DNA of 20,831 bases from positions 1-20,831 of IMG/VR virus record IMGVR_UViG_3300025646_000471; one strand, 5' to 3'. Of the stretch, positions 1-7,088 are shown one piece after another. The stretch is from a virus. Within the stretch, counting starts at the first letter, position 1. Every line of letters starts with the position of its first letter. A model generated the notes under the pieces. That model was not told the origin of the DNA. It saw only the letters and a list, made by a program, of their open reading frames with translations, and did not search any database. Both the position numbers and the translations under genes were made by a program.

Positions 1-339
1 AACGCAGAGGGTACAATCCTCGCTCAAGGGATGGCTCAAGAGGACAAGGCATCAAGCCGTATCAATCAGACATCCTACGTCGAGAACTGCGAAACATCCG
101 CAGTAGGTCGTGCCCTTGGATTTCTTGGGATCGGGATTGAGACTTCCATCGCCACAGCAGATGAGGTCGATATGGCCATCAAAAAGCAGGACACAGCCCC
201 TGACCGAAAGCAACTGACCGCTGACATCGTTAGCAGTATGAAGGATGCCGTAAAGGGCGGAAAAGAGGCGCACGTCAAGTCCGCACTCGAAAGCAAGTAC
301 ACATATACTAAAGAGCAATACGAAGAGATTTTCGGATGA
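1..339 (+). CDS. ERF-like single-strand DNA annealing protein, 3' part
   Basis: This reading frame is already open at base 1, so only the C-terminal 112 residues are present; the first internal ATG at 31 is probably not the true start. The stretch SYVENCETSAVGRALGFLGI matches the conserved core seen in phage ERF-type recombination proteins, which anneal complementary single strands during phage recombination. After this core comes a charged linker with many Lys, Glu and Asp residues and a short tail ending in EEIFG. The gene overlaps the next by the ATGA arrangement and lies just upstream of a RecE-like exonuclease, the usual partner of an annealing protein. Family membership is inferred from the motif and the context; the N-terminal half is outside the window. 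Confidence 0.7.
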   Translation, partial: NAEGTILAQGMAQEDKASSRINQTSYVENCETSAVGRALGFLGIGIETSIATADEVDMAIKKQDTAPDRKQLTADIVSSMKDAVKGGKEAHVKSALESKYTYTKEQYEEIFG

Positions 340-548
340 GCGAGGAAGAAGAAGGCTACGCCAATACGCACACAATCACGATGACCAATGGTACATATTT
401 TACAATTCGGTTTGAGAAAGAAGAAGGGCGTAATGTTGTAGATATCTATCAGGTGTTTGATGAGGATAATGAAATATATCTTATGTCAATGGCAAAGGAG
501 CATTTGGTGGAAATGATATACCAATTTGAATCTATGTTAAATGACTGA
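336..548 (+). CDS. Small unknown protein, 70 residues
   Basis: I do not recognise this protein. It starts inside the stop of the annealing-protein gene (ATGA overlap) and its end overlaps the exonuclease gene by 8 bases, so the three are almost certainly co-translated. The product is acidic, with a run of Glu near the N-terminus, then a segment of alternating hydrophobic and polar residues (TYFTIRFEK) that suggests beta strands, and a helical C-terminus (HLVEMIYQFESML). There is no signal peptide or membrane segment. Its position between two recombination genes suggests an accessory role in the same process, but nothing in the sequence proves that. Confidence 0.65.
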   Translation: MSEEEEGYANTHTITMTNGTYFTIRFEKEEGRNVVDIYQVFDEDNEIYLMSMAKEHLVEMIYQFESMLND

Positions 549-1284
549 GGAACTATTTAAGGACGACAGCGCATATTATTCTGACAGACAGTATCTGTCG
601 AATAGCGCCCTGAAGCTTCTACGTGAGTCCCCCCACAAATTCGCACTATGGCGTACTCGCCAATGGGAGCAACCAAGCAATGTTGCTTTCGAGTTAGGCA
701 AGGCTGTTCACTCTATGTTTTTAGAGGGAATAGATAACGCAATGGTGACGAGCGTACGTAGAGATGTCAGGACCAAGGCATACCAAGACTTCTTGGAGGA
801 AAACAAGGATAAGTTTATTCTATCCAAGTCTGACTACGAGAATTATTTGGGGATGTGTGAGCGACTTCAAAACAACAGCGAAGTACAAGCACTTATGTGG
901 AGTGGTCGTCCTGAAGTTCCCGCAGTTGGAGAATATAGAGGATTAAAGTTTAAGGGCAAGGCTGACTGGCTCGTTGAATCTCCAGGCGAAAGTTACATTT
1001 TAGACCTGAAGACCACATCGAAAACCATCAGTGACTTCTACAAAAGCGCAAAGTTTCTATTGTATAACCAGCAGGCAGCATTGTACAGCCACCTGTTTAA
1101 CGTAGATAGATTTTACTTTGTGGTTGTTGAGAAGAGTTGGCCTTATGAAATTGGTATTTTTGATACAAGCATTGAGTTTATTCAGTCCGGATATTACGAA
1201 CTAAATAAATCCATAGACTTGTATGAGGAGTTATTTGTAGAAGGTTCTTATACTAAAGATTATGCAAGACAGTTTATTTTATAA
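541..1284 (+). CDS. RecE-like PD-(D/E)XK exonuclease (PDDEXK-like exodeoxyribonuclease 8 family)
   Basis: A 247-residue nuclease of the kind annotated as putative exodeoxyribonuclease 8, PDDEXK-like domain. Visible motifs in order are an N-terminal SNSALKLLRESP segment, GKAVH with His57, a KGKADW segment with the metal-binding Asp142, the ILDLKTT strand giving Asp155 and Lys157 of the D-x-K signature, and the YNQQAALY helix at about 175-182, typical of RecE/RecB-like exonucleases. In phages this enzyme resects double-stranded ends and hands the strand to an annealing protein, here encoded directly upstream. It overlaps the next gene by 23 bases. The domain assignment is well supported by the ordered motifs; activity and polarity are inferred from the family. 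Confidence 0.85.
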   Translation: MTEELFKDDSAYYSDRQYLSNSALKLLRESPHKFALWRTRQWEQPSNVAFELGKAVHSMFLEGIDNAMVTSVRRDVRTKAYQDFLEENKDKFILSKSDYENYLGMCERLQNNSEVQALMWSGRPEVPAVGEYRGLKFKGKADWLVESPGESYILDLKTTSKTISDFYKSAKFLLYNQQAALYSHLFNVDRFYFVVVEKSWPYEIGIFDTSIEFIQSGYYELNKSIDLYEELFVEGSYTKDYARQFIL

Positions 1285-1651
1285 TATCGTAGATATTGTC
1301 TCCATCTATTCGGGTGTAGACAGCGAGGAGATTATGACTCCAAAGAAGTCTCGCCCGGTAACAAAGGCAAAACGTCTTGCGTCAAATATCCTCAAGCAGT
1401 ACGGATATGGTGCGACTGAAATCTCACTTATCCTAAACATCGATCGGAAGTCTGTGTACGATTACGTACAAACACACGAAGATTGGATGGACAACAGTTC
1501 CTACAAAAAATCTTATCTGAGCTGTATTTCTGCTCTTGATGAGCTTGATGAGTCAGGACTAAACTTGAAAAGCGAGGTGGACAAACTCAAAATCAAGGTA
1601 CTTAAACTCGAAGATATGTACGAGCATATCAAACAATTAATTTTATCTTAA
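1262..1651 (+). CDS. DnaA domain IV-like DNA-binding protein with C-terminal coiled coil
   Basis: A 129-residue protein whose first half resembles the duplex DNA-binding domain IV of the initiator DnaA. The pattern IYSGVDSEEIM, then SRPVTKAKRLASNIL, then ATEISLILNIDRKSVYDYV parallels the DnaA series of a short helix, the R-x-x-x-x-x-R basic helix, the T-x-x-E-I-G turn and the D-H-T-T-V recognition helix (here Asp61 to Val65). The AAA+ ATPase domains of DnaA are absent. Residues from about 85 to 129 have the heptad-like spacing of a coiled coil (LKSEVDKLKIKVLKLEDMY), suggesting dimerisation. It lies between an exonuclease and an SSB-tipped protein. It may be a phage origin-binding protein or a regulator; it could also be a generic helix-turn-helix factor. 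Confidence 0.65.
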   Translation: MQDSLFYNIVDIVSIYSGVDSEEIMTPKKSRPVTKAKRLASNILKQYGYGATEISLILNIDRKSVYDYVQTHEDWMDNSSYKKSYLSCISALDELDESGLNLKSEVDKLKIKVLKLEDMYEHIKQLILS

Positions 1652-1657
1652 TTTGAA

Positions 1658-1900
1658 ATGGCTGAGAAGAATGCTACTTTCATTGGTAAGACCAAAGTGG
1701 TCAAGACCAAGTTCGGTGAAATCGTTAAAATTGCCTTTGGGCCACGCGATTTCGAACAATTCGAAGGACTCAAGAACCAAAGTGGTTGGGTGAATCTTGA
1801 GTTAATGTCTAAGCGCGATGGCGAGAAATACCTGAAGGTTCAGGATGAGTATCAGCCAAAGAAAGCTGTAAACGCAGGGACCGACGACTTCCCTTTTTAA
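1658..1900 (+). CDS. Mini protein with SSB-type acidic C-terminal tip
   Basis: An 80-residue protein ending in TDDFPF, which closely resembles the DDxPF tip by which bacterial single-stranded DNA-binding proteins recruit partner enzymes. The body has alternating hydrophobic residues (KTKFGEIVKIAFG, WVNLELMSK, KYLKVQ) that suggest a small beta barrel, followed by a short linker and the tip, so its layout mimics a shrunken SSB. Codons favour AAG, GGT, ATC and TTC more than those of its neighbours, as expected of an abundantly made protein. The gene sits among recombination and replication genes and is followed by a strong hairpin terminator. The SSB-like role is inferred from the tip and the context; a canonical full-length OB fold is not evident. 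Confidence 0.6.
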   Translation: MAEKNATFIGKTKVVKTKFGEIVKIAFGPRDFEQFEGLKNQSGWVNLELMSKRDGEKYLKVQDEYQPKKAVNAGTDDFPF

Positions 1901-1921
1901 TGTCGTAACTATTCAATTGTG

Positions 1922-1945
1922 AGAGGGGGCGAAAGCCCCCTTTTT
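1922..1945 (+). terminator. Hairpin terminator after the SSB-like gene
   Basis: A perfect stem GGGGGC/GCCCCC with a GAAA tetraloop, extended by A-T pairs and followed by five T residues, begins 22 bases after the stop codon at 1900. It has the form of an intrinsic terminator. It ends only 13 bases before the next start codon at 1959, leaving no room for a separate promoter, so downstream genes must depend on read-through or processing. Confidence 0.85.
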
Positions 1946-1958
1946 CAACCTCTTTGTT

Positions 1959-2237
1959 ATGGGTAGCGATTACAGATTCTTGTATTGGGATGACCTTGGT
2001 GATAGCCAACAGCACGTAGATAACCAATGTCAAAAGCACGCTGAACAACAGGATAAAGACCTGTTGGAAGAAAGACTCCTTGATGCCGAATGGATTGAAA
2101 AGGAGGAAGAGTATAACAGACGTATGGATATTATTGGACAAAATGGGAACACCGGTGAGCACTACTTTGAGTACTTCAATGATCACCTAAGTTCCGCACA
2201 AATTTGGGATGATGAAGAAGAAAGAGACATCGAGTGA
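1959..2237 (+). CDS. Unknown acidic protein, 92 residues
   Basis: No family is recognised. The product is strongly acidic and rich in Gln, Glu and Asp, with a central helical stretch (KDLLEERLLDAEWIEKEEEY) and an acidic end (WDDEEERDIE). It has no membrane segment or signal peptide. Translation probably begins at the ATG 13 bases after the terminator hairpin. Its end overlaps the start of the next small gene by 26 bases. A very acidic small early phage protein could bind a basic host target or mimic DNA, but there is no direct evidence for this. Confidence 0.6.
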   Translation: MGSDYRFLYWDDLGDSQQHVDNQCQKHAEQQDKDLLEERLLDAEWIEKEEEYNRRMDIIGQNGNTGEHYFEYFNDHLSSAQIWDDEEERDIE

Positions 2238-2355
2238 CCAGTTTATGCGTATAGCAATGGCTCGTCTAAAGGCAGATTGGCCTTTCTATCCACAGCGATT
2301 AGCGATGGCAGCACATATGTATCGCAAATGGCTAGATAGACAAATGGCTCAATAA
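2212..2355 (+). CDS. Small basic protein, 47 residues
   Basis: This short frame starts at an ATG inside the end of the preceding gene and runs to TAA at 2353-2355. The product begins MKKKETSSDQ and continues as one likely amphipathic helix region rich in Arg, Met, Ala and Trp (RIAMARLKADW, MYRKWLDRQMAQ). The overlap and the plausible amino-acid composition support a real gene, but it is short and belongs to no family I recognise. It is the last coding sequence before the structured non-coding region. Confidence 0.5.
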   Translation: MKKKETSSDQFMRIAMARLKADWPFYPQRLAMAAHMYRKWLDRQMAQ

Positions 2356-2360
2356 AGGAA

Positions 2361-2419
2361 TGAGTAGGTTGTTGGGAGGCGGTGGGTTAATGGATGATCA
2401 AAGCCGCCTCCCCCACTCA
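2361..2419 (+). other. Long stem-loop
   Basis: The arms GGGAGGCGG (2374-2382) and CCGCCTCCC (2404-2412) are perfectly complementary over 9 bp. Outside them TGAGT (2361-2365) can pair with ACTCA (2415-2419) across an internal loop. The terminal loop is 21 bases. The structure stands out for its GC content in an AT-rich region. It may be an RNA element, a DNA cruciform, or a block to transcription without a U-tract. Confidence 0.55.
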
Positions 2420-2420
2420 G

Positions 2421-2464
2421 TCAAAGTGTAAAATAATGCACCCTCAAAGTGTCAAATAATGCAC
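2421..2464. repeat. Tandem 21-bp direct repeat
   Basis: TCAAAGTGTAAAATAATGCA plus C at 2421-2441 is repeated at 2444-2464 with a single A-to-C difference. The period is 23 bp, roughly two helical turns, so proteins bound to both copies would lie on the same face. Each copy includes a weak dyad (GTG ... CAC). The layout fits iterons for an initiator or paired operator sites for a repressor; only two copies are present. Confidence 0.7.
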
Positions 2465-2470
2465 TTTAGC

Positions 2471-2505
2471 TCGGAAAAGTTCCGAATACGGCTCAATAGT
2501 GAGCC
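2471..2505 (+). other. Two consecutive short hairpins
   Basis: TCGGAA (2471-2476) pairs with TTCCGA (2480-2485) over a 3-base loop, and GGCTC (2490-2494) pairs with GAGCC (2501-2505) over a 6-base loop. Both are perfect and only four bases apart. Neither is followed by a T-tract. They may form a structured 5' leader for the genes that start at 2563. Confidence 0.4.
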
Positions 2506-2562
2506 ACAAGCGTAACGATTACCATTGATTCTTAAACGAGGGTAAATTATTACAAAATAGAA

Positions 2563-2730
2563 ATGAAATATCGAGTTAACTACACCTACTTTGACCAAAG
2601 CAAAACGAAAGCTGCTCAATGGGAGCAGAGAGAGAAGGACTTTGAGACAATGGAGGAGGCTCTTCTTTTTGTCAAAAGGGTAGACCTGAACATATCAGTT
2701 AGAAATATAAACATTCAACCTGTACTGTAA
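2563..2730 (+). CDS. Small unknown protein, 55 residues
   Basis: An ATG in an A-rich leader opens a frame to TAA at 2728-2730. The product begins MKYRVNYTYFDQ, carries a charged middle (KAAQWEQREKDFETMEEAL) and ends in a short hydrophobic strand-like segment (LNISVRNINIQPVL). The alternation of beta-like ends around a helix suggests a compact folded domain. It is the first gene after the structured region and is coupled to the next through a TAATG stop-start overlap. No family is recognised. Confidence 0.55.
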   Translation: MKYRVNYTYFDQSKTKAAQWEQREKDFETMEEALLFVKRVDLNISVRNINIQPVL

Positions 2731-2882
2731 TGCAAATAGAAACATTTAAATTTATTGGTAGCGTTCACTTGTTGCCACACATATCTTTTTGCTATGATTC
2801 GAACATATGCGAAAGGGCAATTTCAATTGGTTGGCTGTGGTACGGAGTTACCATATACAGGAAAAACGAAATGCACTTATGA
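2730..2882 (+). CDS. Small unknown protein, 50 residues
   Basis: The start codon shares one base with the stop of the upstream gene (TAATG), and the stop overlaps the next start as ATGA at 2879-2882. This precise coupling on both sides is the main argument that it is translated. The product is fairly hydrophobic (KFIGSVHLLPHISF, ISIGWLWYGVTIY) and contains two Cys residues, but has no clean membrane helix. No family is recognised. Confidence 0.45.
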   Translation: MQIETFKFIGSVHLLPHISFCYDSNICERAISIGWLWYGVTIYRKNEMHL

Positions 2883-3178
2883 GCGAAGAAATGCAAATAA
2901 TATACTTGTACAGAGTACAACTTGCTTGGAAGGTAACATCCGGCAGGTCTTACTCAAACGTGTACAAGGGGTCTGAAGACAGGCCATACGAATTTGTATC
3001 ACGTGCCAAAAGCATAGATGATATAAATAGAAATCCTGAGATTGTTTATCAGATGATGCTACAAAATGGCTTGACTGGAAAGAAAATCAAGGATTTCTTT
3101 ATAAAGGAGTGCTATGAACAGCGCCCAATTTCACAATCGTTTCACCATAAAGAAGAGGACTACAACAAAGAATTTTAA
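2879..3178 (+). CDS. Unknown protein, 99 residues
   Basis: The preferred start is the ATG at 2879 (MSEEMQIIYLYRVQ), which overlaps the upstream stop as ATGA; an in-frame upstream start at 2807 would overlap that gene almost completely. The product has a strand-like N-terminal part (MQIIYLYRVQLAWKV) and a middle typical of small phage proteins. A helical, lysine-rich part follows (GLTGKKIKDFFIKECYEQ). The stop lies only two bases before the helicase gene, so it is probably co-expressed with it. No function can be assigned; a helicase accessory role is possible from position alone. Confidence 0.6.
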   Translation: MSEEMQIIYLYRVQLAWKVTSGRSYSNVYKGSEDRPYEFVSRAKSIDDINRNPEIVYQMMLQNGLTGKKIKDFFIKECYEQRPISQSFHHKEEDYNKEF

Positions 3179-3180
3179 AA

Positions 3181-4110
3181 ATGAGGGAATTTATTTTTGA
3201 TGCGGACAAACTCAAAGAACAGCTCATCGAACTGAGGAACGATGGGATGAAGAAAGGAGACTGGGTAGGGTTTCACAGCCTGTACGACAAGTACTCAGTA
3301 AAAAGAGGTAGCACCACCTATATTTATGCAGGTGCTCACCAAGGAAAGTCTCAATTTGCTTTTGAGATTATGATGAATCTTGCTCAGTATTCAGGATGGA
3401 AGTGGGCAGTGTACTCGCCTGAGACAGGAAGCCCAGTTGAGGTCTTTGCTGAACTATGCTGGGTGTATCTGCGAAAGCCATTCTTGATCAATGAAAAGAT
3501 TACTGCTACGGATGAAGAGGCACAACTTGCCATAGAATTTATCACCAAGCATTTCTATATCATTGATTCGGGATTGCAAGACATAACAATCGAAGGCTTC
3601 TATACTGCTGTGGCAGATGTAGAGCAACGATATGACATCAAGATTGATGGATGCTCCATTGACCCATTCACCGAAATAAAGACAGATGTGTCTTCCGGTG
3701 TTCGTGATGACATTGCCATAGGTCAGATTCTGACTCGTGTTCGAAAGCACTCTGCAGAGCGAGACTACCACACAATCGTTACCGTTCACACCAAGCACCA
3801 ACAGGTGAAGTACAAGGATGGAATCCCATACGTTGACGTGCCTACGATGAACGACATCGCAGGGGGTATGCAGTGGTCGCGAAAGGGGATGATGGTGATA
3901 AACATATGGAGGTGTCCATACGGACTAACCGACAACAACGGAGTGCCCTATGAGCCGAATCAGGTGAAGATATCAGTGGTCAAGGCGAAGCCAAAGGCCG
4001 TTGGTAAACTTGGATGGGTGTATATGTACTACGACCGAATAATGAACAGGTACTACGAGGTAAACGATTTTGATGGAACAAAAATATATGCACAAGCACT
4101 CGCTAATTAA
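3181..4110 (+). CDS. DnaB-like replicative helicase core (RecA-fold ATPase)
   Basis: A 309-residue protein matching the C-terminal ATPase domain of DnaB-family helicases, without their N-terminal primase-binding domain. The Walker A motif GAHQGKS is at residues 51-57, preceded by the strand TTYIYA. The Walker B region DGCSIDP is at 156-162, with Asp161 as the likely metal-coordinating residue. Further on are a THTKHQ segment like helicase motif 3, and AGGMQWSRKG followed by hydrophobic residues and an Arg, equivalent to the DnaB segment near the nucleotide site of the next subunit. It would unwind DNA at the phage fork as a ring. No primase is visible in the window. A RecA-like recombinase is the main alternative but fits the motifs less well. 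Confidence 0.75.
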   Translation: MREFIFDADKLKEQLIELRNDGMKKGDWVGFHSLYDKYSVKRGSTTYIYAGAHQGKSQFAFEIMMNLAQYSGWKWAVYSPETGSPVEVFAELCWVYLRKPFLINEKITATDEEAQLAIEFITKHFYIIDSGLQDITIEGFYTAVADVEQRYDIKIDGCSIDPFTEIKTDVSSGVRDDIAIGQILTRVRKHSAERDYHTIVTVHTKHQQVKYKDGIPYVDVPTMNDIAGGMQWSRKGMMVINIWRCPYGLTDNNGVPYEPNQVKISVVKAKPKAVGKLGWVYMYYDRIMNRYYEVNDFDGTKIYAQALAN

Positions 4111-4375
4111 TGAGTACAGGAGGTCGTGGGGCAACGCCCTACGGCTCTTCTTCGCTCTCAATATAGAGCGCATTACAAGCGCAGAGTTTGATGACAACTT
4201 AGACTTAATTATAAACGGAGAACTGTATAAGTTTGATGTTGGTGATTACACTGGACACGCAGATAAATACATCTTTTTTAACCCTATAAATGGTAGGCTT
4301 GTCATTGAGTCAAATGGCGTTAAGAAAATCTATAAATTTGAAGTATCTTTATTTGATGAGAATGAAAAGTTCTGA
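4073..4375 (+). CDS. Unknown protein, about 100 residues
   Basis: The frame overlaps the end of the helicase gene. Possible ATG starts are at 4073 (MEQKYMHKH) and 4088 (MHKHSL); the second leaves a shorter overlap, and the sequence does not decide between them. The product has a basic N-terminus, then ALRLFFALNIERI, and a beta-rich C-terminal half with regular alternation (DLIINGELYKFDVGDY, KYIFFNPINGRLVIES, KKIYKFEVSLF). No domain is recognised, although the D-x18-ExY-like layout is faintly reminiscent of small nuclease folds; I do not claim it as one. Confidence 0.55.
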   Translation: MEQKYMHKHSLINEYRRSWGNALRLFFALNIERITSAEFDDNLDLIINGELYKFDVGDYTGHADKYIFFNPINGRLVIESNGVKKIYKFEVSLFDENEKF

Positions 4376-4634
4376 AGAAAAAATTACAGAAGTTGCAAAC
4401 TCTGTTCGTGATTTACTGATTCATAAAAATGCTGCATACGGTGATTCTGCCCTTAAGCCTGTTGCTATTTTTGGAAATGCGGATCCAATCGTTTCTCTAA
4501 CCGCTAGGATTGATGACAAACTTATGCGCATAAAGAACAGGGGCCTAAATGATAATACAGAAGATACAGTTGTTGACCTAATAGGTTATCTAATTCTTCT
4601 GAAGATTGCTTTAAATGATGCTAATCAGAAATGA
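4356..4634 (+). CDS. DUF1599 / Nmad1-like protein
   Basis: About 92 residues from the ATG at 4356 (4362 is an alternative; both lie inside the end of the upstream gene, and an earlier in-frame start would overlap it far more). The ordered features KNAAYGDSALKP, then a helix RIDDKLMRIKNRG, then EDTVVDLIGYLILLK match the family known as DUF1599 or nucleotide modification associated domain 1. That family occurs in phage genomes and has been linked by comparative genomics to modified-nucleotide metabolism. The helix with E-x-x-x-D also recalls all-alpha nucleotide pyrophosphohydrolases. The family call is fairly firm; the substrate is unknown. Confidence 0.65.
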   Translation: MRMKSSEEKITEVANSVRDLLIHKNAAYGDSALKPVAIFGNADPIVSLTARIDDKLMRIKNRGLNDNTEDTVVDLIGYLILLKIALNDANQK

Positions 4635-5025
4635 AAGAGAGCTATTTAACTATCTAAAGGAAAATCACATTGCTGATTTAGAAACTTGTCGAGACGAGTT
4701 TAGTTTCTATGATTGTTATTCAAGTTATACAAATTCAGACATAGAGCTGAAGTGTAGGAAGACTCACTACGATGAACTTCTCATAGAAAAAGCAAAATAC
4801 GATAACCTACTCGCCAGGGCGTTAGAGTTCCGTACAGTACCATTGTACATTAACTCTACGCCCTTTGGTGTTTTTGTATTCACCCTAACTGAACTACCAG
4901 TGCCAGCTTGGGAAGAAAGAAATATGCCAAAGACTACTGAGTTTTCAAACAGAGAAAAGATAACAAAAGTGGTAGGCTATTTGAACATAAGAGACTCTAA
5001 AGTTCTTGAGTATTGGAAGAAATAA
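4615..5025 (+). CDS. Possible small PD-(D/E)XK nuclease-fold protein
   Basis: A 136-residue protein overlapping both neighbours (20 bases upstream, 13 downstream). Two ATG codons in a row at 4615 and 4618 could start it. Residues 31-46 contain FYDCY followed by DIELK, which could be the Asp and the E-x-K of a PD-(D/E)XK active site (Asp33, Glu44, Lys46). A basic helix with LLIEKAKYDNLL and a strand-rich segment (TVPLYINSTPFGVFVFTL) come next, in the order expected for that fold. The C-terminal part (MPKTTEFSNREKITKVVGYL) looks conserved but is unassigned. Its position beside RusA suggests DNA processing. This is a motif-based inference with only moderate support. Confidence 0.5.
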   Translation: MMLIRNERELFNYLKENHIADLETCRDEFSFYDCYSSYTNSDIELKCRKTHYDELLIEKAKYDNLLARALEFRTVPLYINSTPFGVFVFTLTELPVPAWEERNMPKTTEFSNREKITKVVGYLNIRDSKVLEYWKK

Positions 5026-5381
5026 TATTAACCCTGCCAAAGCCACCAAGCCTTAATAAGATATACGCTGGTGTACACTGGGCAACAAGACTTAAATATA
5101 AAAATGACTATAAAGGAAGTATTAAAGCTGAGCTTTCTAATCACGATAAGTTTACTTGCGAAAGCTATAGTTTGGACATTAGCTACAATAGCAGGCTTGA
5201 TATTGATAACGGCATTCTTGTTTCAAAGTTTTTATCTGATTGCCTTGTCCAAGAAGGGTATGTTCCGGATGACACTCCAAAGTATTTCACTTCGGTTAAA
5301 ATCTCATTCGATGGAACTCTACCGAAAAATACGTATTTGGTTAAATTAAAAATTAAAGGATATAAATTGTATGGCAACTAA
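5013..5381 (+). CDS. RusA-family Holliday junction resolvase
   Basis: A 122-residue protein of typical RusA length. It begins with the family hallmark PKPPSLNKIYAG followed by a basic segment (WATRLKYKNDYKGSI). The active-site region is RLDIDNGILVSKFLSDCL (residues 61-78) followed by GYVPDD: Asp63 and Asp65 form the D-x-D-N motif, Lys72 lies in the expected helix, and Asp86-Asp87 provide the later acidic ligands. RusA dimers resolve four-way junctions, and in phages this helps finish recombination and trim branched DNA before packaging. It completes the recombination gene set of this block. The gene overlaps its neighbours on both sides. Confidence 0.85.
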   Translation: MEEIILTLPKPPSLNKIYAGVHWATRLKYKNDYKGSIKAELSNHDKFTCESYSLDISYNSRLDIDNGILVSKFLSDCLVQEGYVPDDTPKYFTSVKISFDGTLPKNTYLVKLKIKGYKLYGN

Positions 5382-5604
5382 GTATCACACAAACCCGGAA
5401 ATCGCCAGTTTAATTGATGAAAAGCTGCAAGCTATGGCTTCGGCTTTTGCAAACACTGGTAAGGACTCAACGCTTAAAGAAATAAAAGAAGCGTACAAGA
5501 AAGAATGGAAACTTATGGATGAGATTGCTCAGATTGATCCTGAGTTCTGCAAGATCATTCGCCCTTATGATGAAAAAGAATGGATGAATCGTACGAAATC
5601 CTGA
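5371..5604 (+). CDS. Unknown helical protein, 77 residues
   Basis: It starts at an ATG inside the end of the RusA gene and overlaps the next gene by 25 bases. The product is predicted by eye to be almost all helix and highly charged (SLIDEKLQAMASAF, LKEIKEAYKKEWKLMDEIAQ), with a Pro-rich turn near the C-terminus (IRPYDEKEW). It has no membrane segment. No family is recognised; small helical proteins at this place in phage genomes are often unassigned regulators or packaging accessories, which is only a contextual remark. Confidence 0.55.
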   Translation: MATKYHTNPEIASLIDEKLQAMASAFANTGKDSTLKEIKEAYKKEWKLMDEIAQIDPEFCKIIRPYDEKEWMNRTKS

Positions 5605-5804
5605 CACAGGATGAGGCGGACTTCCTTATTGAATTATATGAGAAAATTAGAACTCGCGTAGTAGACAAGCGACAAGTAACACTTGTTGGTATAGCAAAAG
5701 AATTTGGTATGAAACCATCTGAACTTGCAGAATACCTACCGCACATACTATCGATGTTAAATGCTATTGAGGATGAGGTACGACAAGGACGAGATAGAGA
5801 TTGA
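5580..5804 (+). CDS. Small helix-turn-helix-like protein
   Basis: A 74-residue acidic protein starting at ATG 5580 within the previous gene. The segment VTLVGIAKEFGMKPSELAEYL (about residues 38-58) has the spacing of a helix-turn-helix, with Ala in the first helix, Gly at the turn, and a second helix starting with Lys-Pro-Ser. The N-terminal helix (EADFLIELYEKIRTRVV) could support dimerisation. It lies directly before the candidate sigma factor and overlaps it, so both may be part of one transcription-control unit. DNA binding is an inference from this pattern only. Confidence 0.5.
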   Translation: MDESYEILTQDEADFLIELYEKIRTRVVDKRQVTLVGIAKEFGMKPSELAEYLPHILSMLNAIEDEVRQGRDRD

Positions 5805-6174
5805 GGCTGTCCGTTCTGTTGAGCAAGGTAGACTTACAAATAAGATTGGAAGGTTTATACTTGACCGCTCTGGAGAAATAGCAAATTCATCATTTAAGTC
5901 ACCAGAGAATCCTGAGCTGACTCAGGCTCTTATTGATGATGCTGTAATGAGATGCTGTGAAAAGTTCCTGCATTATTACAGGCCAAATGAAAGCGCAGCA
6001 AACCTAATCATATCTATGATATTTTCTGCGATGTATAATAAAATGACCTCACTAAACTGGAGCGATGTCTATGGTCAAAAGATATCAGGGAAAGTTCGTT
6101 TGGTTGAAGATGGCGACATAGTAATTAAATACGTTCGCTATATGAAAGATGATAACATAAGTAAAGACCTATGA
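5773..6174 (+). CDS. Candidate late transcription sigma factor, T4 gp55-like
   Basis: The likely start is ATG 5773 (MRYDKDEIEIE); an in-frame ATG at 5761 is also possible. The 133-residue product contains ELTQALIDDAVMRCCEKFLHYY followed by ANLIISMIFSAMYNKMTSL, which recalls the region 2-like helices of T4 gp55-type late sigma factors, where an E/D-x-I-x-D-A-I-x-x-C segment is followed by an aromatic-rich helix carrying basic residues. Such proteins guide host RNA polymerase to phage late promoters. It is located at the end of the early block, just before the convergent late genes, where a late switch would fit. Similarity is at the pattern level only; no -10-like late promoter could be matched to it. 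Confidence 0.5.
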   Translation: MRYDKDEIEIEAVRSVEQGRLTNKIGRFILDRSGEIANSSFKSPENPELTQALIDDAVMRCCEKFLHYYRPNESAANLIISMIFSAMYNKMTSLNWSDVYGQKISGKVRLVEDGDIVIKYVRYMKDDNISKDL

Positions 6175-6413
6175 ACTTATATGAAACTTGGCTGATAGTT
6201 GTTAGCACAGGACTCCTGTTTTGCTATCTATATATATTTGATCCGTTTGTTCGGTTTATCGATGAGAACCTAAATTTTAAACCTTTTAACTGCGTTTTGT
6301 GCGCTACCTTTTGGGCATCAATTATTATTGATTTACTTTTAGGAATTAATATTATTTACGCTTGTTTCTCCGCATTTGTGGCGGAAATGGCATATCGTAA
6401 ATTGGTAAATTAA
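6171..6413 (+). CDS. Small membrane protein with a Cys-x2-Cys motif
   Basis: An 80-residue protein coupled to the upstream gene by an ATGA overlap. Two hydrophobic segments are evident, at about residues 6-24 (WLIVVSTGLLFCYLYIFD) and 45-72 (FWASIIIDLLLGINIIYACFSAF), separated by a loop with KPFNCVLC. The paired Cys residues stand just before the second membrane segment, an arrangement I have seen in small uncharacterised phage membrane proteins. It lacks the context of the lysis genes, which are on the other strand, so a holin role is unlikely but not excluded. Confidence 0.6.
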   Translation: MNLYETWLIVVSTGLLFCYLYIFDPFVRFIDENLNFKPFNCVLCATFWASIIIDLLLGINIIYACFSAFVAEMAYRKLVN

Positions 6414-6417
6414 TAGT

Positions 6418-6528
6418 ATGGAACAGTTTAAATGGGTAGGTAATTGCACCTGCAACGGAACAGATTGTTCCTGTAATTATTTGTATAACGATAAACCTAA
6501 CGAAGATGCCGATTCCAGCGCCTCTTGA
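6418..6528 (+). CDS. Cys-rich micro-protein, 36 residues
   Basis: A short frame starting four bases after the previous stop. The product MEQFKWVGNCTCNGTDCSCN has four Cys in a C-x-C-x4-C-x-C pattern, then an acidic tail. Four close Cys could bind one zinc ion or form disulfides. The tight spacing and the overlap with the next small gene support a real coding sequence, but the length leaves doubt. No family is recognised. Confidence 0.45.
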   Translation: MEQFKWVGNCTCNGTDCSCNYLYNDKPNEDADSSAS

Positions 6529-6658
6529 CACTGAGAACAAAAAACAATACGCAGAACGATGTATGTCAGATGAAACAATGTTACAAGAATATCCAACACC
6601 AGCTCAGCGATATGCCGTGTGTATGGTAAAATGGAAAGATAGCATTAAGGGAAAATAA
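6506..6658 (+). CDS. Conserved-looking small phage protein, 50 residues
   Basis: It starts within the Cys-rich gene and ends two bases before the convergent terminator. The pattern MPIPAPLDTENKKQYAERCM, then EYPTPAQRYAVC and a final Val-Lys-Trp-Lys, resembles a short segment often found in Bacteroidota phages either as a tiny protein or near portal or protease genes (pattern M-P-I-P ... R-C-M ... E-Y-P ... Q-R-x-A-V-C ... W). Its function is unknown to me. The recall of the pattern supports that it is a real gene. Confidence 0.55.
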   Translation: MPIPAPLDTENKKQYAERCMSDETMLQEYPTPAQRYAVCMVKWKDSIKGK

Positions 6659-6682
6659 AAAAGGGGGCGTAAGCCCCCTTCT
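6657..6682. terminator. Shared bidirectional terminator between convergent blocks
   Basis: GGGGGC (6663-6668) pairs with GCCCCC (6673-6678) over a GTAA loop, with flanking A and T residues extending the stem. In the minus direction it is followed by a strong T-tract (complement of the A run at 6655-6662). In the plus direction it is followed by TTCTTC, a weaker tract. It lies between the stop at 6658 and the minus-strand stop at 6687, so it can end both transcripts. Confidence 0.85.
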
Positions 6683-6686
6683 TCGT

Positions 6687-7088
6687 TTAACCAAATAACC
6701 TATATCTCACAAAAATCAATAGACCAAATATAATTAATAAAAGTACAGATAACCAAATAATTACTTCCTTAAATTCATTTTTTTTTGGCTCTGCTGGCTT
6801 GTATACATATTTAGTGACGTTTACACGAACAGTGTCTGAAGGGCAGTCAACATTTAGATAGACAAGACTATCTCGAAAGTCAACCTTTACTTTTACGCGA
6901 TCTTGATAAATTACCGTGTCCCTGAACAATGTCACTGTGTCTGTTAGTGTTCTTTCCTTGGTTACAATTACCGTGTCCCGAACAATCACACTCTCTGGGA
7001 CTAAGACTACACCACTTCTGCATCCACTAACTACCGCAAGAAGTGCACTCGTCAGGATTATCAATATTACAGGTCGGAACTGGCGCAT
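6687..7088 (-). CDS. Candidate unimolecular spanin (lipoprotein with C-terminal membrane anchor)
   Basis: A 133-residue protein with an N-terminal lipoprotein signal peptide: a basic start (MRQFR), a hydrophobic core, and a lipobox VSGC with the lipidated Cys at residue 23. At the other end residues 109-127 (VIIWLSVLLLIIFGLLIFV) form a membrane helix followed by Arg-Tyr-Arg. The middle is rich in alternating Val/Asp/Thr (VIVRDTVIVTKE, VTLFRDTVIYQD), implying beta strands. A lipid-anchored N-terminus plus an inner-membrane C-terminal helix is the layout of u-spanins such as T1 gp11, which fuse inner and outer membranes at the last step of lysis. It directly follows the endolysin gene, as a spanin should. 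A plain accessory lysis protein is the alternative. Confidence 0.65.
   Translation of the reverse strand: MRQFRPVILIILTSALLAVVSGCRSGVVLVPESVIVRDTVIVTKERTLTDTVTLFRDTVIYQDRVKVKVDFRDSLVYLNVDCPSDTVRVNVTKYVYKPAEPKKNEFKEVIIWLSVLLLIIFGLLIFVRYRLFG

Follow-up and report, generated by a model that had tools for sequence, protein, structure and literature searches.

We analysed a viral DNA of 20.8 kb (IMG/VR virus record IMGVR_UViG_3300025646_000471), here called the window, which means this whole stretch and which may be a genome fragment, and in particular its interval at 2356-2562. Judged by unit, period and orientation, a pair of direct repeats in this interval (2422-2459) appears to be the two-copy counterpart of the promoter-proximal iteron arrays with a 23-bp period that stand before one clade of bacterial AAA_14-DUF4143 genes. 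PADLOC lists the AAA_14-DUF4143 protein as PDC-S01, a phage defence candidate. Accordingly, our preferred explanation, which may well be correct and which we hold tentatively, is that the pair is a phage-borne predicted binding site, likely a decoy, for a host protein of the PDC-S01 type. The window phage itself is a putative Bacteroidota phage; GenBank relatives of its helicase are mostly Flavobacterium and Riemerella phages.

The interval consists of two modules, a stem-loop and the repeat pair, which are independent, since each of the two occurs without the other in viral contigs. A preliminary description of this DNA had treated the interval as one structured element, and this view is not supported.

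The repeat pair in phages

The direct repeat of the window extends over 21 nt (2421-2441 and 2444-2464, 20/21 identity, period 23), and at lag 23 it reaches a top two-copy score of 30/30, compared with 20-23 in shuffled windows. Public viral contigs were searched for two copies of CAAAGTGTNAA with the gap left free over 31 lengths (12-42 bp). After removal of duplicates, the period was exactly 23 bp in 53 of 71 distinct matches, a preference for one spacing that would not be expected of a chance or coding repeat. An unplanned spacing control with a 22-bp pattern matched 0/8 genomes. The copy number is as strict as the spacing: each of the 57 distinct phage contexts of period 23 contains exactly two copies (this count defines "distinct" by longer flanks and includes the window), and in 19 of the 20 records that bear the pair it occurs only once in the whole record, with 0 matches for the reversed-pattern control. 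Other, unrelated 23-bp pairs were not enriched in the same phages. Searches of INPHARED and PLSDB returned no relative of the region, and the pair only as chance matches.

The preliminary description had proposed a comparison of the repeats across related phages, and the outcome is divided: they are conserved in other phages, and they are missing from the entire 38-kb record of the close relative L010 (G001). In L003-L005 and L008 the pair lies elsewhere and in reverse orientation. Therefore, the repeat pair is an accessory site.

The same layout occurs in unrelated phages with other units. The second unit, ACGGTAGNGTA (L268 type), forms two-copy period-23 pairs in the phage contigs L349, L352 and L355, all of which carry terminase genes (L349 also has DNA polymerase and UvsX-like genes), and no DUF4143 gene above the cut-off was found in these three contigs. 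Beside the ACGGTAGNGTA pair, L352 and L355 contain a third pair with the unit GATACTATCTGNATAG, again of period 23, which resembles the L267 type.

Bacterial arrays and the predicted host protein

In about 85,000 species genomes, the unit pattern was found at 11 loci only, 8 of which are titled Bacteroidota. At seven of the 11, an AAA_14-DUF4143 gene follows directly after 3-6 tandem copies, and an eighth gene (L210) was obtained when 395 Bacteroidota genomes were scanned, in which otherwise only the starting genome's own array appeared. The unit CAAAGTGTAAAA is thereby found before eight genes (L200-L204, L206, L209 and L210); the AAA_14 and DUF4143 domains were identified with Pfam for L200 and L209, and the other loci have the same P-loop frame. 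The phage pair and the bacterial arrays are alike in this unit, in the 23-bp period and in the direct orientation. They differ in that the bacterial arrays have 3-6 copies and, in half of those scored, a -7 box, whereas the phage site has two copies, no -7 box and no gene. With two copies and no PF13635, the window departs from the bacterial arrangement, in which an AAA_14-DUF4143 gene directly follows at least three copies. One of the contigs, L202, is labelled Candidatus Rokubacteria; its AAA_14-DUF4143 region is nearly identical to that of a Bacteroidetes metagenome-assembled genome (L206), and it is probably mis-binned.

The period extends beyond this unit. Thirteen relatives were picked by protein similarity only, blind to repeats, and the best upstream lag was 23 in all 13, with other units such as AGCCGTTTTGCTGGTTATTCCTT, GTGGTCCATCTGTATAGTTGAAA and GTGGATGAACGGTAGCGTAGGAG; the arrays of L269 and L270 are weak individually (p about 0.01). 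When the seven full-length genes of the CAAAGTGT type are added, 23-bp arrays stand before 20 of 20 genes. In the tree, the CAAAGTGT unit is limited to one clade of eight (support 100/100), the one remaining member of which has a divergent unit. Other DUF4143 subfamilies (L314, L316, L318, L322 and L299) have palindromes or periods of 22, 32 or 34 bp before the gene, so that a rule of 23-bp arrays before all DUF4143 genes was rejected. This suggests that the repeat layout follows the DUF4143 subfamily, and since the other subfamilies have other layouts, the 23-bp period appears to go with the protein. Such a combination, a period that stays constant and a unit that is specific to the clade, would be expected if the protein, or a co-inherited factor, binds the repeats.

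The model of the L200 protein (17 sequences; predicted local distance difference test score, pLDDT, 90.7; predicted template modelling score, pTM, 0.91) has an AAA+ core, a segment of three helices and two strands at about 208-285, which we read as winged helix-like, and a C-terminal PD-(D/E)XK fold with the invariant residues E342, D344, E358 and K360. In a Foldseek search, the model matched the archaeal ATPase SSO1545, Orc1/Cdc6 initiators on origin DNA and Card1/Cdn1 nucleases, with low global template modelling scores that place the likeness at the domain level only. As modelled, the protein would combine an Orc1/Cdc6-like ATPase, a winged-helix-like segment and a PD-(D/E)XK nuclease. A recent survey (PMC12988326) ranks PDC-S01 fourth in frequency among prokaryotic defence systems and notes its composition of an ATPase and PD-(D/E)XK.

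A proposed decoy or docking site and its alternatives

PF13635 was absent from all 21 phage records examined, which comprise the window together with 20 others (19 that match the pair strictly, plus G003-type relatives), and at the BLAST level no protein family is common to all pair-bearing records. Because the checked phage records have neither the gene nor a common binder protein, the host protein is the best candidate for the binder. In the mechanism that we propose, the host protein would bind its own array in direct-repeat register, and this binding would control its own gene. The phage pair would be a minimal two-site docking place for the same protein, and the copies on phage genomes may soak up or mis-position it, blunting the candidate defence system.

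The Bacteroidota -7 box has the form TAnnTTTG. Within 70 nt downstream, it is present at 5 of 10 bacterial arrays and at 0 of 50 phage pairs (0.7 expected by chance). Its occurrence in half of the bacterial arrays fits, as expected, a putative autoregulatory array. Considering that no -7 box stands near the phage pairs, a docking or decoy site is favoured over a promoter operator.

Several known systems offer comparisons. RNA-based anti-CRISPRs are solitary CRISPR-repeat mimics of phages. In both cases, the phage has a minimal form of the repeat from a host defence locus but none of the defence genes; here, however, the site is apparently double-stranded DNA with helical phasing, and the host system is something other than CRISPR. 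Plasmid iterons and archaeal Orc1/Cdc6 origin boxes are direct repeats about two helical turns apart that are bound by winged-helix proteins. The repeat spacing is similar, and the host protein model matches Orc1/Cdc6 on origin DNA, but the phages have two copies only, which are dispensable in close relatives and tied to no initiator gene. Operator decoys, or titration sites, are a general regulatory concept in which extra binding sites could titrate a regulator; in contrast, no natural phage decoy for PDC-S01 was found in the literature searched. In that literature (on DUF4143, PDC-S01, AAA_14, COG1373 and decoys), the titles and passages searched report no such repeats. A cognate DNA repeat of one subfamily that is legible from the promoter provides a biochemical handle on what the protein recognises, and the matched two-copy phage pairs point to an arms race over the site and make this arms race testable.

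Going further, many phages might carry two-copy DNA mimics of PDC-S01 promoter arrays, each matched to its clade, as a DNA-only class of counter-defence that titrates a sequence-specific Orc1/Cdc6-like nuclease-ATPase; this is a possible generalisation, which we advance with marked reserve.

Several points weigh against a decoy for the PDC-S01 protein and against its generality. The defence role of PDC-S01 is itself only a candidate one. L199, L207 and L208 have CAAAGTGT arrays of 3 to 5 copies on Bacteroidota contigs with no gene of the matching clade directly downstream; such arrays are either remnants or sites that serve a separate purpose. The binding factor could also be a regulator of the host that co-evolves, and not the PDC-S01 protein. 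When phage sequences were scanned for two further types of array, CATTCGTGGA and GTCCATCTGTA, no period-23 matches appeared, and the generality is therefore partial. Many of the phage contexts are mutually related, so that the counts overstate the number of independent events. Finally, the pair lies on the same strand as the local coding sequence in 45 cases and on the opposite strand in 4, whereas a pure decoy needs no such bias.

This strand bias suggests some connection with transcription, and a phage operator therefore stays in play as an explanation. In that case, the host protein that binds the arrays would also bind the pair and regulate the downstream phage gene or genes, so that the phage could react to the defence state of its host. 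The position of the pairs upstream of small genes and their orientation, which is that of the bacterial promoters, agree with this. However, the genes downstream of the phage pairs are many and unrelated, the -7 box is lacking as described above, and the pairs face the other way in L352/L355 and L003-L005. We consider this explanation unlikely, if still worth attention. An operator role had also been put forward in the preliminary description, with a DnaA-like protein as binder. The kind of element was well judged, in that the repeats are conserved elsewhere and have a strict 23-bp phase like that of protein-binding sites; the proposed binder is not supported, as described below.

The wiring could also run in reverse: a phage-encoded DNA-binding protein would recognise the pair, and the bacterial gene would have acquired a copy of this site, so that the defence gene is induced upon infection. 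The closeness of the bacterial arrays to -7 boxes and the single, strictly phased pairs of the phages would suit this arrangement. Yet the 23-bp period is kept across quite different units, which suggests the bacterial protein family as the common factor, and no protein family is common to all pair-bearing phage records; we regard it as rather improbable. An equally small likelihood is given to a conserved Bacteroidota regulator unrelated to PDC-S01 that binds both arrays and pairs. It would account for L199, L207 and L208, where this clade's gene is not directly downstream, but the unit changes with the PDC-S01 clade while the period stays constant, and 394 further Bacteroidota genomes contained one other pair, again before such a gene.

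A phage replication origin, bound by the DnaA-domain-IV-like protein or another initiator, was the other role put forward in the preliminary description. The geometry is iteron-like, and exonuclease, annealing-protein and helicase genes lie near the pair in several phages. Against this, the pair is lacking in L010 and varies in position and orientation in other relatives, it occurs in phages without a common gene family, and the GC skew within the window, which may be a fragment, is positive all along 1-6700 with no minimum at the interval. The likeness of the 1262-1648 product to DnaA domain IV is real and weak (PF08299, E = 6e-4, 20.2 bits where the cut-off is 31.5). The occurrence of its close homologues does not follow that of the pair, and proteins with a DnaA_C domain are no rarer in pair-less records (5 of 6) than in pair-bearing ones (11 of 21). 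We therefore consider an origin very unlikely. Separately, these phages often encode small proteins with a region like DnaA domain IV (1262-1648 in the window; L222, L224, L232 and L235). Such proteins are of two kinds, and the L222 kind retains the DHTTV signature.

Least credible of all, the nuclease might recognise DNA as foreign by the pair and attack the phage there; its PD-(D/E)XK residues are intact, but selection would purge a harmful and dispensable site, and many phage lineages keep the exact spacing.

The stem-loop and other features of the interval

The direct repeats, the GC-rich 9-bp stem with its arms, the small hairpins and the AT-rich end named in the preliminary description are all present at 2356-2562. 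The 9-bp stem (2374-2382 and 2404-2412) is perfect and is enclosed by outer pairing arms. The predicted folding energy of 2350-2562 as RNA is -67.9 kcal/mol, lower than in all 200 shuffles (-44.3 +/- 4.5; z = -5.3), and an Rfam search of the interval and the window gave no family above the gathering score. The features are listed in Table 1.

Table 1. Features in and next to the interval at 2356-2562 of the window
Feature	Positions	Strand	Remarks
Upstream small gene, 48 aa, ..DQFMRIAMARL..	2209-2355	+	From the list of open reading frames
Module 1, stem-loop: outer stem around TGAGT/ACTCA, inner stem GGGAGGCGG/CCGCCTCCC, loop GTGG..TAAYGGATGATNNAAGC	2360-2421	+	12 homologous sequences
Module 2, repeat copy 1, CAAAGTGTAAAATAA	2422-2436	+	Same unit as the bacterial arrays
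Outer stem AATAATGCACCCTC (2432-2445)/GAGGGTAAATTATT (2538-2551), which encloses the three hairpins in the minimum-energy fold prediction	2432-2551	+	86% complementary
Module 2, repeat copy 2, CAAAGTGTCAAATAA	2445-2459	+	Starts exactly 23 bp after copy 1
Small hairpin AAAGTG/CACTTT, with repeat copy 2 in stem and loop	2446-2467	+	RNA fold
Small hairpin TCGGAA/TTCCGA	2471-2485	+	RNA fold
Small hairpin GGCTCA/TGAGCC	2490-2505	+	Sequence and RNA fold
Downstream small gene, 55 aa, MKYRVNYTYFDQ...	2563-2730	+	No known family above cut-off

The stem-loop is well conserved as a structure. When its 12 phage versions were aligned, 95.6% of the cells were paired and 7 of 17 pairs showed compensatory double changes; 0 of 500 shuffles scored as high, and slid controls were much lower. 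The loop is nearly invariant across the 12 versions. The stem-loop accompanies the repeats in L120, L176, L196 and L325 and stands without adjoining repeats in L100, L149 and L333. In L014, L176 and similar loci, its start is the stop codon of the upstream gene, and accordingly its sequence makes an RNA role at the 3' end of that gene likely. The possibility that it is a short coding open reading frame was rejected, since several relatives have early stops in the frame.

The surroundings of the pair recur in part in other phages. Segments like CGGAAAA..TCCGAAT, comparable to the hairpin at 2471-2485, also follow the pair in L106 and L136. The downstream small gene lies directly 3' of the pair in L120, L136 and L174 as well, and a homologue of the upstream small gene begins right at repeat copy 2 in L161, L166, L198 and L181. 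The leader CCTTTAACACCAAAGAGAAATG, which probably serves as a common start element for translation or transcription, precedes many small genes of this phage group (L003, L052, L053 and L084-L100; for example, L003:3228-3300) and often lies exactly 26 bp past the repeat pair. In L113, L190 and L349, which are unrelated phages with two different repeat units among them, the pairs begin right after the 3' end of a phage-borne transfer RNA gene. A further repeat, CAAAGTAAGGG, with a spacing of about 33 bp, lies 5' of the 23-bp pair in one phage group (L053:3068-3190, L097:2770-2880), and a tandem repeat of CAAAGTGTAAAC with a 12-bp period occurs in other viral contigs (L114, L125, L126, L145 and L154).
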